From: Gammaproteobacteria bacterium
GTDB taxonomy: Bacteria > Pseudomonadota > Gammaproteobacteria > Steroidobacterales > Steroidobacteraceae
Assembly: GCA_020851435.1 (NCBI GenBank)
Contig: JADZCS010000245.1
Span: 1-45,457, forward strand
Length of the DNA: 45,457 nt
Reading direction: 5' to 3'
The translations under genes and the position numbers were made by a program. Shown here in pieces: positions 3,358 to 23,997 of the stretch. Below the pieces are notes generated by a model. It saw nothing but the letters and a program-made list of their open reading frames with translations, was not told the DNA's origin and did not search any database. Each line of letters begins with the position of its first letter. Position 1 is the stretch's first letter.

Positions 3358-4682
3358 GCGGCGACTGGCCGGCCGGTTGCGTCGGGATGGCCGGCGCTTG
3401 GACGGGCGCGGACCCTGAGCGCCTGGCGCCGGGGCTCAATGCCGCGTGCCAGTGTCTCTGGCTCGACCGTCCCGTGCTGTTCGATGCACGGCCCGGCCTG
3501 GCGGCCGGCAACGTCGTGTTCGTCGATCCGCAGGACGCCCTGGCCATGGATCGCACCGTCGCCCTGGTGCACCAGGCGCTGGCCAGTCCCGCCTTCGCCC
3601 GTCTCGTCGAACGTCATGCGCCGGCGATCGCGCGGCCAGCCCGCTCGTCGACCGGCGGCGTTCTCGGCCTGGACTTCCACCTCGGCGGCCCTGACCCCCA
3701 GCTGATCGAGATCAACACCAACCCGGGGGGGCTGCTCGTCAACCTTGAACTGGCCCGCGCGGTCACCGCCTGTTGCGACGAGGTAGCGGCGCCGTTCCTG
3801 GAGCAGGCGACCCGAGGGCTGGAACTGGACGGGCTGGCCTCGCGCGTGGCGGACCTGTTCCGCGCGGAGTGGGCCAGCGAGCGCGGCGACGTTCCGCTTC
3901 GCACGATCGCCATCGTCGACGATGACCCGCCGGGCCAGTACCTCTATCCGGAGTTCCTGCTGTTCCAGCAGTTGTTCGAGCGCGCCGGCTGGCGCGCGGT
4001 CATCGTCGACGCCGCGTCGCTCGAGCTGCGCGACGGTGCCCTGGTCGCCGATGGCGAGCGCATCGACCTGGTCTACAACAGGCTCACGGATTTCTACCTC
4101 GCGGAAGCGCGGCACGATGCGCTGCGGCGCGCATATGAAGCCGGCATCGCCGTCGTGACGCCACACCCCGCGGCGCACGCGCGCCTGGCCGACAAGCGGC
4201 TGCTGGCGTGGCTGTGCGACGACGGTCTGCTGCAGGAGGCGGGTCTCGACGATGCCGCAAGGGCGCAGCTTCGGCGCACGATCCCGCCCACCGAGGTCGT
4301 GGATCCGGCCGCCGCGGACGAGCTGTGGAAGCGTCGCAAGGAACTGTTCTTCAAGCCCTTGGACGGTTATGCCGGCAAGGCTGCCTATCGCGGCGACAAG
4401 CTCACGCGCGCGACCTTCGCGCACATCCTGTCGCAGCCCTACGTCGCCCAGGCCGTCGCGCCCACGTCCATGCGGCGCGTGATTGTGGAGGGCCAGGAGA
4501 CCGACCTGCGTGTCGACGTCCGCAACTTCTGCCACGGCGGCGAGACCTGGCTGCGCGCCGCGCGGCTGTATCGCGGGCAGACCACGAACTTCCGCACGCC
4601 CGGCGGCGGCTTTGCCCCGGTGCTTACGCTGTCGTCAGTCCTGGGCCCATCCGCGCGAGCGATCGACTGCGCGTGCCCATGA
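3354..4682 (+). CDS. ATP-grasp-like protein of unknown function
   Basis: 442-aa ORF with TTG start overlapping the upstream TGA; C-terminal [15 protein letters not shown]...[39 protein letters not shown] resembles ATP-grasp ligase catalytic segments. 3' end overlaps glpK convergently. Confidence 0.55.
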
Positions 4683-6143
4683 CGCCATCCGGGCGGTAGC
4701 CTCGTCGCGGCCCATGCCGGGCTCGAAGACGCGCTCGACCTGCCAGTTGCCCGCCACGTCCTCGGTCGATCCCCAGTAGCCGGTAGCGAGGCCCGCGAGG
4801 TAGGCCGCGCCGAGCGCGGTGGTCTCGCGCACGCGCGGACGCACCACGGGTACGCCCAGCAGGTCCGCCTGGAACTGCATCAACAGGTCGTTGGCGGTCG
4901 CGCCGCCGTCGACGCGCAGTTCGGTGAGCGGCTGGCCCGCGTCGCGCTGCATCGCGCCCAGCAGCTCCGCGCTCTGGAAGGCGATCGACTCGAGCGCCGC
5001 GCGCGCGATGTGTGCGCGCGTGCTGCCGCGCGTGAGCCCGACGATCGCGCCGCGCGCATAGGGATCCCAGTGCGGGCTGCCGAGGCCGGTGAAGGCGGGG
5101 ACGACGTGCACGCCGCCGGCGTCGGCGACGCTCGCGGCCAGCTCCTCGACCTGTTCCGAGCGCTCGAAGAAGCCCAGGCCGTCGCGCAGCCACTGCACCA
5201 CGGCGCCGCCGACGAACACGCTGCCCTCGAGCGCGTAGCTCAGCGCGTCGGTGCGCCAGCCGATGGTGGTCAGCAGGCGGTTCTCCGAGACCACCGGCGT
5301 CCGGCCGCTGTTCATGAGCAGGAAGCAACCAGTGCCGTAGGTATTCTTGGCCATGCCGGGCTTGAAGCAGGCCTGGCCGAACAGCGCGGCCTGCTGGTCA
5401 CCGGCGATGCCGCCCAGCGGAACCTGGTAGCCGCCCAGGTCGACCGTCAGTGGTTCGCCGCGCGCGATCGTGCCGGCGGGAATCGACGAGGGCAGGATCT
5501 CGGGCAGGCAGGCGCGCGGAATGTCTAGCATCTCGAGCATGACCGGGTCCCAGTCGCCGGTCTCTAGGTTGCACAGCATCGTGCGGCTGGCGTTGGTCGC
5601 GTCAGTCACGTGCAGCCGGTGATCCGAGAGCTTGAACGCCAGCCAGCTGTCGACGGTTCCGAACGCCAGTTCGCCGAGTTCCGCGCGGGCGCGTGCGCCG
5701 GGCACGTTGTCGAGCAGCCAGGCGAGCTTGGTGCCCGAGAAATAGGGGTCGAGCACCAGCCCCGTGCGACGCATCACCTCGGGTTCGTGACCGGCGGCGC
5801 GCAGGCGGTCGCAGGCTTCCGCGGTGCGGCGATCCTGCCAGACGATGGCGCGAGCAACGGGCCGGCCGGTGGCGCGGTCCCACAGCACCGTGGTCTCGCG
5901 CTGGTTGGTGATGCCGATCGCCGAAATCTCGCGCGCCGAGACGTTCGCGCGGGCCATGACCTCGGCCATCGTCGCGGCCTGCGAGGCCCAGATGTCGTCG
6001 GGATCGTGTTCGACCCAGCCCGGTCGCGGGAAGTGCTGCTCGAACTCGCGCTGCGCCACCGCGACGATGTTGCCGGCGTGGTCGAACAGGATCGACCGCG
6101 AGCTCGTCGTCCCCTGGTCCAGGGCCAGCACCAGTCGCGTCAT
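4635..6143 (-). CDS. glpK: Glycerol kinase
   Basis: [95 protein letters not shown]: classic GlpK. Confidence 0.97.
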
Positions 6144-6144
6144 G

Positions 6145-22946: not shown

Positions 22947-22953
22947 CCCGGCC

Positions 22954-23997
22954 ATGACCAACCCCGTCGTACTGCGCGTGCTGCTGGCCCTGATCGTCGC
23001 CGGGTGCATTGCCGGCATCGTCAACTCGCGCAGCGAGCGCGCGGAGTTCACGATCCGCATCGCCTTCCTCGCTTCCAAGGACGACGAGGATTACTTCGGC
23101 GCCATGGCCTTCAAGCGCTACGTCGAGGAGCGCCTGCCGGGGCGTGTGTCGGTGCAGGTATTCCCTTCTGGCCAGTACTGCGGCAGCGAGCGCGAATGCA
23201 TCGAGGCACTGCAGAGCGGCACGCTGGAGATGCACCAGACCACCATCGGCGGCCTCGCGGGGCTCTATGGGCCCGCCCAGGCGCTCGACCTCCCGTACCT
23301 GTTCCCCAGCGATGCGGTGGCCGAGTGCGTTCTCGACGGCCCCATCGTGCGCGAGATGGGCGACTCGATCCTCGCCCAGGGCCTGGGCCTGAAGCTCATG
23401 GCCATCGGCAACACCGGCGGCTGGCGCAGCTTCGCAATGCGCGACGTGCGCATCCGCGGCGTGGCAGACCTCGCGGGGCGCCGGATCCGTACGCTGCCCT
23501 CGGCCATGGAGCAGCAGATGGTGCGCGAGCTCGGCGCGAGCCCGATGCCGCTGCCGTTCTCCGAGCTCTATTCAGCGCTGAACGCCGGCCTGCTGGACGG
23601 CACCAAGAACAGCATCCAGGACGTGGTGGGCCAGAAGCTGCACGACCACATCCGCTACCTGTTCGTCGACCGGCACAGCTACATGACGGCGATGTGGTGG
23701 TACTCGGACAAGCGCTGGCAGGTGCTGCCGCCGGACGTGCAGGCGGTCGTCGGGCAGGGCTTCCGCGCCCTCGCGATCGAGACGCGCGCTGCCGCCGCGC
23801 GCCGGGAGGCGCCGGCGCTCGAGGAATTCCGCCGCCGTGGCGGCACGGTCGACATCGCGACCGACGCGCAGCGCGCCGAGTTCAAGGCTGCCACGCTGCC
23901 GCTGCGCGACTGGTACGCCGAGCGGTACGGAACCACCTGGCTGACGCGGCTGGACCAGGCCGTCGCGGCCTGCGAGGCGGGGCGGCCACAGGCTTGA
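22954..23997 (+). CDS. TRAP transporter substrate-binding protein (DctP-type), possible lipoprotein
   Basis: LEMHQTTIGGLAGLYGPAQALDLPYLF, GNTGGWRSFAMRDVRI, LAGRRIRTLPSAMEQQMVRELGASPMPLPFSELYSALNAGLLDG; N-terminal LIVAGC lipobox-like. Confidence 0.9.
   Translation: MTNPVVLRVLLALIVAGCIAGIVNSRSERAEFTIRIAFLASKDDEDYFGAMAFKRYVEERLPGRVSVQVFPSGQYCGSERECIEALQSGTLEMHQTTIGGLAGLYGPAQALDLPYLFPSDAVAECVLDGPIVREMGDSILAQGLGLKLMAIGNTGGWRSFAMRDVRIRGVADLAGRRIRTLPSAMEQQMVRELGASPMPLPFSELYSALNAGLLDGTKNSIQDVVGQKLHDHIRYLFVDRHSYMTAMWWYSDKRWQVLPPDVQAVVGQGFRALAIETRAAAARREAPALEEFRRRGGTVDIATDAQRAEFKAATLPLRDWYAERYGTTWLTRLDQAVAACEAGRPQA

Follow-up and report, generated by a model that had tools for sequence, protein, structure and literature searches.

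Sulfoquinovose is produced at some ten billion tons per year, and its breakdown is usually pictured as a relay between two species. Sulfoglycolysis and desulfonation within one bacterium were still called unusual in 2025, and a tandem sulfofucolytic-sulfolactate sulfolyase pathway has been shown experimentally in Paracoccus wurundjeri Merri (PMC12421959). Extended sulfoglycolysis, with clusters of sulfo-transaldolase (sulfo-TAL) and SuyAB genes, is known from Thermotogae and Chloroflexi, and hybrids that mix enzymes from both sulfoglycolytic Embden-Meyerhof-Parnas (sulfo-EMP) sets are also on record (PMC9594981). Actinobacterial clusters with GH188, for example that of IMCC26103, have been described as well (PMC11465081). 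Here, we analyzed a 45,457-nucleotide stretch from a member of the Steroidobacteraceae (Gammaproteobacteria; GCA_020851435.1), which is the whole of contig JADZCS010000245.1 (C245, "the window") in a draft genome of 3.27 Mb and 95.8% completeness. Its positions 4635 to 23997 very probably hold a GntR-controlled regulon by which a sulfosugar glycoside, in the likeliest case sulfoquinovosyl glycerol, is taken up and fully used.

Layout of the locus

The genes that a first-pass annotation had placed at 4635 to 23997, and their order, were confirmed by open reading frame (ORF) calls, GC content at third codon positions (GC3) and family matches: all are long ORFs with coding-type GC3. The lower operon (minus strand) reads suyA-suyB-comC-slcC-YeiH-glpD-glpK, and the upper operon (plus strand) reads gntR, PfkB kinase, LacD-type aldolase, isomerase and GH31, followed by genes for a TonB receptor and a tripartite ATP-independent periplasmic (TRAP) transporter.

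4635 to 6143, minus: glpK, glycerol kinase (NCBIfam GlpK, 755 bits, cut-off 498; the genome's sole close copy)
6145 to 7674, minus: glpD, glycerol-3-phosphate dehydrogenase (NCBIfam, 768 bits, cut-off 360)
7681 to 8682, minus: YeiH-family transporter, probable sulfite/sulfate exporter, SuyZ-like (TIGR00698, 163 bits, under the cut-off of 233)
8679 to 9611, minus: slcC, probable (S)-sulfolactate dehydrogenase (2-Hacid_dh; start at 9611 inferred from relatives)
9649 to 10686, minus: comC, probable (R)-sulfolactate dehydrogenase (Ldh_2 family; 50% identity to the Sinorhizobium mexicanum gene)
10683 to 11855, minus: suyB, predicted (R)-sulfolactate sulfo-lyase large subunit (identities to SuyB of sulfonate clusters; tree)
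11869 to 12156, minus: suyA, predicted sulfo-lyase small subunit (UxaA family; start at 12156 inferred from relatives; ORF open to 12213)
12225 to 12236, no strand: predicted GntR operator TCTTGTATAAGA in the suyA/gntR gap (palindrome kept 5' of gntR in relatives)
12320 to 13039, plus: GntR-family regulator (HutC/PhnF-type GntR)
13058 to 13963, plus: PfkB kinase, probable sulfofructose kinase, YihV-like (best solved structure 7ag6, 234 bits)
13984 to 15036, plus: LacD-type class I aldolase, probable sulfofructose-1-phosphate aldolase (NCBIfam PRK12858, 333 bits)
15033 to 16430, plus: FucI/AraA-fold aldose-ketose isomerase, probably SqvD type (PF02952; fold model)
16433 to 18505, plus: GH31 glycosidase, candidate noncanonical sulfoquinovosidase (Pfam GH31; closest solved structure YicI)
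18588 to 18599, no strand: second predicted GntR operator TCTTATATAAGG, 5' of the TonB receptor (same place in relatives)
18702 to 21026, plus: TonB-dependent receptor (family match; kept across related loci)
21033 to 21653, plus: TRAP small membrane subunit DctQ (PF04290)
21657 to 22946, plus: TRAP large membrane subunit DctM (TIGR00786, 412 bits)
22954 to 23997, plus: TRAP solute-binding protein DctP (NF037995, 163 bits)

The lower operon groups with sulfolactate sulfo-lyase clusters

The window SuyB is 68% identical to a plasmid copy in Cupriavidus pinatubonensis, whose gene adjoins hpsN and hpsO, 75% identical to that of Paracoccus versutus and 79% identical to that of S. mexicanum. Identity was 60 to 79% within this group and did not exceed 41% with other UxaA-family proteins; in the tree, the window protein fell with good support inside the Cupriavidus/Paracoccus/Sinorhizobium SuyB clade, apart from the sugar-acid dehydratases and separated by long branches from the other UxaA-family proteins. 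SuyA is 71 to 74% identical to its Paracoccus and Sinorhizobium counterparts. The S. mexicanum genes, listed with SuyAB, SlcC and ComC in PMC12421959, run suyA-suyB-yeiH-slcC-comC, and the hydroxyacid and Ldh_2 dehydrogenases beside suyAB in the window are orthologous to that SlcC/ComC pair (62 and 50% identity, respectively). The best NCBIfam model for ComC was L-sulfolactate dehydrogenase (183 bits, under its cut-off of 500). A YeiH-family gene also follows suyAB in P. versutus and S. mexicanum, and the window GntR is 42 to 44% identical to the GntR proteins adjoining suyAB in Paracoccus and Sinorhizobium. By clade membership and orthology, the predicted product of the lower operon is a true sulfolactate sulfo-lyase, SuyAB, and the SuyAB/ComC/SlcC desulfonation module of the first-pass annotation is borne out. 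A look-alike cluster was seen on a Variovorax plasmid (L115:1511-6274), with a UxaA-family pair (41% identity to SuyB), a hydroxyacid dehydrogenase, a binding protein of the tripartite tricarboxylate transporter (TTT) type and an Ldh-family dehydrogenase.

The upper operon resembles a hybrid sulfo-EMP pathway

Among solved structures, the kinase matched the sulfofructose kinase 7ag6 best (234 bits), and it is 45% identical to Escherichia coli YihV. Residues K27, N109 and R138 of YihV, which we take to be the proposed sulfonate contacts, were retained by all 14 clade kinases compared, and the YihV-type assignment made earlier therefore holds. The aldolase had been called YihT/LacD-type, of which only the second part stands: identity to YihT is only 27%, with the YihT Schiff-base Lys193 aligned to Lys210, and LacD-type models score far above YihT, which rules out YihT orthology. 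Its closest solved structure is 8tnf.

The isomerase was assigned to the ORF at 15033 to 16430, which matches PF02952 at 30 bits (cut-off, 29.3); a 287-amino-acid ORF in another frame was rejected. A sequence search of this isomerase against solved structures returned no match. Its predicted model (predicted local distance difference test [pLDDT] score of 90) has a fold that matches the L-arabinose and L-fucose isomerases AraA and FucI, and family and fold together make it probably an SqvD-type enzyme. SqvD, known for sulfoquinovose, belongs to PF02952 (PMC9594981). Agreement with Sulfo-EMP2 (SqvD, SqiK, SqiA) is limited to this isomerase type, since the kinase belongs to PF00294 and not PF00365 and the aldolase to PF01791 and not to class II PF01116; an assignment to Sulfo-EMP2 was therefore dropped. 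The family memberships indicate that the upper half is probably a hybrid sulfo-EMP operon.

One palindrome is common to both halves

In all 23 loci where the gntR start could be placed, a palindrome, TCTTATATAAGA, was found at most 300 bases 5' of that gene, and in 20 of 21 loci it lay 5' of suyA. At least nine loci have it ahead of the TonB receptor as well, and several have it ahead of the kinase or dehydrogenase. (For four sites without an automatic label, the position was assigned by eye: three precede TonB-receptor genes and one a dehydrogenase gene.) Within the clade loci, every palindrome with no more than one mismatch stood 5' of a pathway transcription unit. In the window, the copies at 12225 and 18588 amount to four strand-matches, compared to 0.03 expected by chance. 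We infer that GntR binds this palindrome. The same palindrome stands beside suyA in S. mexicanum and P. versutus, and the sugar module was not matched in the stretches examined there, suggesting that the operator probably arrived together with suyAB and later spread to the sugar genes. The palindrome is thus common to both halves and to the TonB-receptor operon, a pattern that bears on their joint regulation. These data, together with the conserved linkage, support the coupling of sulfoglycolysis with desulfonation proposed at first pass, and the locus very probably serves sulfosugar uptake, splitting and sulfite release in one cell, under a predicted joint regulation.

A distinct GH31 clade and its GH188 counterpart

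The GH31 protein keeps the catalytic residues (Asp405 and Asp472), and its closest solved structure is the alpha-xylosidase YicI. At the columns of YihQ R301, W304 and Y508, presumably the sulfonate contacts of that enzyme, it holds D, F and F, so that it is not a YihQ orthologue. Instead, it belongs to a clade of its own, marked by an invariant loop (DGRAW...TRF.FEW) with two arginines, Arg290 and Arg298, at columns where neither YihQ nor YicI has Arg. The model is weak at loop residues 289 to 301 (pLDDT < 50); therefore, pocket geometry was not read from it.

The proposed role of this protein rests on locus context. Members of the GH31 clade occurred in 21 of 80 isomerase-bearing loci, and none of these 21 had a GH188 homologue, whereas in six Woeseiaceae-type loci GH188 was present and GH31 absent. 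GH188 is a sulfoquinovosidase family (PMC10755693); the Woeseiaceae-type proteins have sulfoquinovosidase structures as their best solved relatives and keep the R-L-K sulfonate motif of GH188 (PMC11465081). The simplest reading of this pattern would be a nonorthologous swap of one sulfoquinovosidase for another. A LacD aldolase was not found within the Woeseiaceae-type loci L041, L042 and L044-L048, where the predicted aldolase must be located elsewhere or be of a different kind.

Related loci carry a candidate for the missing dehydrogenase

The pathway had been described as complete, and in this respect the first reading failed: no gene of the aldehyde dehydrogenase family (PF00171) was found on C245, and the step from sulfolactaldehyde to sulfolactate is thus missing at the window locus. 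A GabD-like gene lies inside five related loci (two from Marinicaulis and one each from Parvularcula, Exilibacterium and SAR324), between gntR and the kinase gene in four of them and beside the kinase gene or slcC/comC in all five. The enzymes known or proposed to oxidize sulfolactaldehyde are GabD-like (PMC8873060). The linked sulfolactaldehyde dehydrogenase expected of a tandem cluster is absent from the window, and a candidate for it is present in five related loci. One of these belongs to a named strain, Exilibacterium tricleocarpae R142 (L043), which has the full locus including the dehydrogenase that the window lacks: suyAB, comC, slcC, gntR and the GabD-like gene, together with genes for the kinase, aldolase, isomerase, GH31, TRAP transporter and TonB receptor. 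The nearest homologue in the host genome, on contig C184, is 56 to 64% identical to the in-locus GabD-like genes; it was rejected as proof of a dedicated sulfolactaldehyde dehydrogenase because it has close homologues in 69 of 98 relatives.

A sulfite oxidase gene was not present in the locus. A SorA-like protein (332 bits to 2blf) is encoded on contig C115, where a small cytochrome-c-like ORF adjoins its gene, and is a good candidate for sulfite oxidation. In a different genome (G020), two genes resembling those of the sulfite reductase proteins CysJ and CysI, recognized by eye, separate the TonB receptor gene from that of GH31 (L019:3019-6666), which suggests use of the freed sulfite as a sulfur source.

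Distribution of the locus

The locus was found in 4 of 98 relatives including the host genome, and one of the four is from a different family within the order. The arrangement is shared by three more genomes of this order, all of different genera, and by 30-odd further loci in several families, and is therefore more than chance. Its nearest carriers are Steroidobacteraceae, Nevskiaceae and other Gammaproteobacteria drafts; it also occurs in Parvularculaceae, Woeseiaceae, Cellvibrionaceae (Exilibacterium) and one SAR324 genome. By hand count, 16 of the 18 clade loci whose suy side was considered sufficiently long contained suyB. Among 369 genomes sampled across the class, the isomerase was found in 2 (including the host) and a close SuyB in 13. 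The genome search proposed with the first-pass annotation thus recovered the same neighborhood in the same order and several other families. The claim that such an island is uncommon fared unevenly: the locus is rare, but colocalization itself has been reported elsewhere (PMC9594981, PMC11465081, PMC12421959). Gene identity, conservation and the shared operator are established here at the sequence level.

The glycerol genes recur with the locus: glpD and/or glpK are found inside or flanking it in the window and in eight further clade loci that span at least three families, and they also adjoin several distant SUP05-type loci. This recurrence fits the release of glycerol from a predicted sulfoquinovosyl-glycerol substrate.

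More distant loci were also recovered. Most of L064-L104 and L106 come from marine alphaproteobacterial single-cell genomes (including Pelagibacteraceae AG-337-I02 and MarineAlpha5) and combine an isomerase of about 35% identity with a GH188-like gene, PfkB kinase, SlcC-like dehydrogenase, sugar ATP-binding cassette (ABC) transporter and ComD/ComE; in one marine pair tested, the ComD and ComE sulfopyruvate decarboxylase subunits exceeded their curated cut-offs. This gene content suggests sulfosugar use by ocean oligotrophs through a sulfopyruvate-to-sulfoacetaldehyde branch, and our literature search found no matching paper. L059-L063, L069, L076 and L085, most of SUP05/Thioglobus type, carry an isomerase of the same type, GH188-like gene, LacD-like aldolase, kinase and SlcC-like dehydrogenase, often with glpK or glpD; ComDE and SuyAB were not found within the stretch examined. 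On plasmid pZZM402 of the model ethanol producer Zymomonas mobilis ZM4 (L110:128-11361), a candidate sulfosugar cluster consists of consecutive genes for a class II aldolase, aldose epimerase, isomerase (37% identical to the window enzyme), GH188-like protein, TonB receptor (35%) and GabD-like dehydrogenase. Elsewhere in the window, an ORF of 442 amino acids at 3354 to 4682 has coding-type composition and gave no Pfam or NCBIfam match, and a gene for an FTR1-type iron permease (42311 to 44703), with a small cytochrome c gene close by, has no relation to the sulfosugar locus.

Proposed pathway and alternatives

In the proposed pathway, the TonB receptor and TRAP transporter would import sulfoquinovosyl glycerol, from which GH31 would free sulfoquinovose and glycerol; the glycerol would pass to dihydroxyacetone phosphate (DHAP) via GlpK and GlpD. 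Isomerase, kinase and aldolase would convert sulfoquinovose to sulfofructose, sulfofructose 1-phosphate and then DHAP plus (S)-sulfolactaldehyde, which an aldehyde dehydrogenase encoded off-contig would oxidize to (S)-sulfolactate. SlcC and ComC would invert this via sulfopyruvate to (R)-sulfolactate, SuyAB would split the latter into pyruvate and sulfite, and the sulfite would be exported by the YeiH protein or oxidized by SorA. We infer all substrates, the direction in which the pathway runs and the dehydrogenase step. A sulfosugar regulon is favored because of the in-locus GabD-like genes, the mutual exclusion of GH31 and GH188, the YihV-like kinase, the SuyB clade, the shared palindrome, the linkage, the recurrent glycerol genes and the marine pairing of isomerase with ComDE. 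Chances are about even for a wider proposal: a hybrid sulfo-EMP pathway, whose entry enzyme is a second type of GH31 sulfoquinovosidase of independent origin and whose substrate arrives by TonB and TRAP import, would be tied by one GntR and operator to desulfonation, with single cells in several proteobacterial families mineralizing sulfoquinovosyl glycerol to pyruvate, DHAP and sulfite.

Several observations weigh against the sulfosugar regulon. Besides the missing PF00171 gene, the likeness of GH31 to YicI and its lack of the YihQ residues, the aldolase family carries the name of tagatose bisphosphate, the genes examined included none identified as a mutarotase gene, and the C184 gene is an ordinary GabD-like one. 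GlpK is single-copy in the host genome and occurs in 51 of 98 relatives, mostly without the locus; glycerol use may therefore be general, and GlpDK as proof of a glyceride substrate is weakened. The chief rival keeps the same logic with another sulfosugar, sulfofucose (the C4 epimer) or a related sulfohexose, split via sulfotagatose 1-phosphate. The FucI-type isomerase, the LacD aldolase of tagatose-bisphosphate type and a GH31 without the YihQ residues would all suit it, and sulfofucose pathways share the terminal SlcC/ComC/SuyAB module, both epimers leading to the same (S)-sulfolactaldehyde (PMC12421959). Nevertheless, we consider it unlikely: it is a sulfoquinovosidase family, GH188, that replaces GH31 in sister loci (PMC10755693), SqvD of the same family as the isomerase is known for sulfoquinovose (PMC9594981), and the recurrent glycerol genes suit sulfoquinovosyl glycerol.

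The two operons could also be independent modules, suyAB-comC-slcC serving imported sulfolactate and the other operon an unsulfonated sugar glycoside, as the nearness of GH31 to an alpha-xylosidase might imply and as in Sinorhizobium and Paracoccus, where suyAB has the same GntR type and operator and sugar genes are absent in the regions examined. Such independence is distinctly improbable given linkage kept across families, one operator common to both halves, a YihV-like kinase with the proposed sulfonate contacts, the GH188 replacement and an in-locus GabD-like dehydrogenase that joins the halves in relatives. That the UxaA-family pair is a sugar-acid dehydratase of an ordinary hexuronate or aldonate pathway is scarcely credible. 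UxaA and GarD do belong to the same family, and the Variovorax plasmid pair has hydroxyacid and Ldh-type dehydrogenases beside it; however, the SuyB identities (68 to 79% to sulfonate-cluster SuyB versus at most 41% to other UxaA relatives) and the tree led us to drop this reading, and the YeiH exporter homologue and the hps genes adjoining the Cupriavidus copy also speak against it.

If the sulfosugar regulon is as proposed, the locus would explain genetically how bacteria of several environmental groups could run the whole route within one cell. The marker set and operator could be used to find more such loci, the GH31 clade points to a candidate second GH31 solution for sulfoquinovoside hydrolysis, and a carrier exists among named strains in which the one-cell idea can be tested.

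Comparison with known systems

Like P. wurundjeri, the window would take a sulfosugar in one organism to sulfolactaldehyde and, through SlcC, ComC and SuyAB, to sulfite; a classical sulfolactaldehyde dehydrogenase was not found there either (PMC12421959). In contrast, the P. wurundjeri pathway is of Entner-Doudoroff type, acts on sulfofucose and uses an ABC transporter, whereas the window pathway would be of EMP type, with GH31, a TonB receptor and TRAP. The Thermotogae and Chloroflexi clusters similarly place sulfoglycolysis genes beside SuyAB and have an SqvD-family isomerase, but use a transaldolase where the gammaproteobacterial window has a kinase and class I aldolase. Clusters of the IMCC26103 type share a fucose isomerase, sulfofructose kinase, aldolase, SuyAB and a 3-phosphoglycerate-dehydrogenase-like gene; they differ in having GH188, an ABC transporter and a sulfolactaldehyde dehydrogenase instead of GH31, TonB receptor, TRAP, ComC and glycerol genes. 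The E. coli sulfo-EMP (yih) pathway has a YihV-like kinase, a class I aldolase and the same proposed intermediates, yet its isomerase, aldolase subfamily and GH31 differ, and E. coli excretes the sulfonate that the window route would desulfonate. The suyAB-SuyZ clusters of Paracoccus, Sinorhizobium and a Cupriavidus plasmid share SuyAB, the palindrome with GntR and YeiH (Paracoccus and Sinorhizobium) and SlcC with ComC (Sinorhizobium); unlike in the window, a sugar-splitting module was not matched in the regions examined. Our literature search found no paper linking sulfoquinovose with TRAP import. As far as the literature searched shows, what sets this locus apart from the systems described before is its combination of enzymes in Gammaproteobacteria, a GH31 that is not of YihQ type, the pairing of TonB and TRAP for import and the operator shared by both halves.

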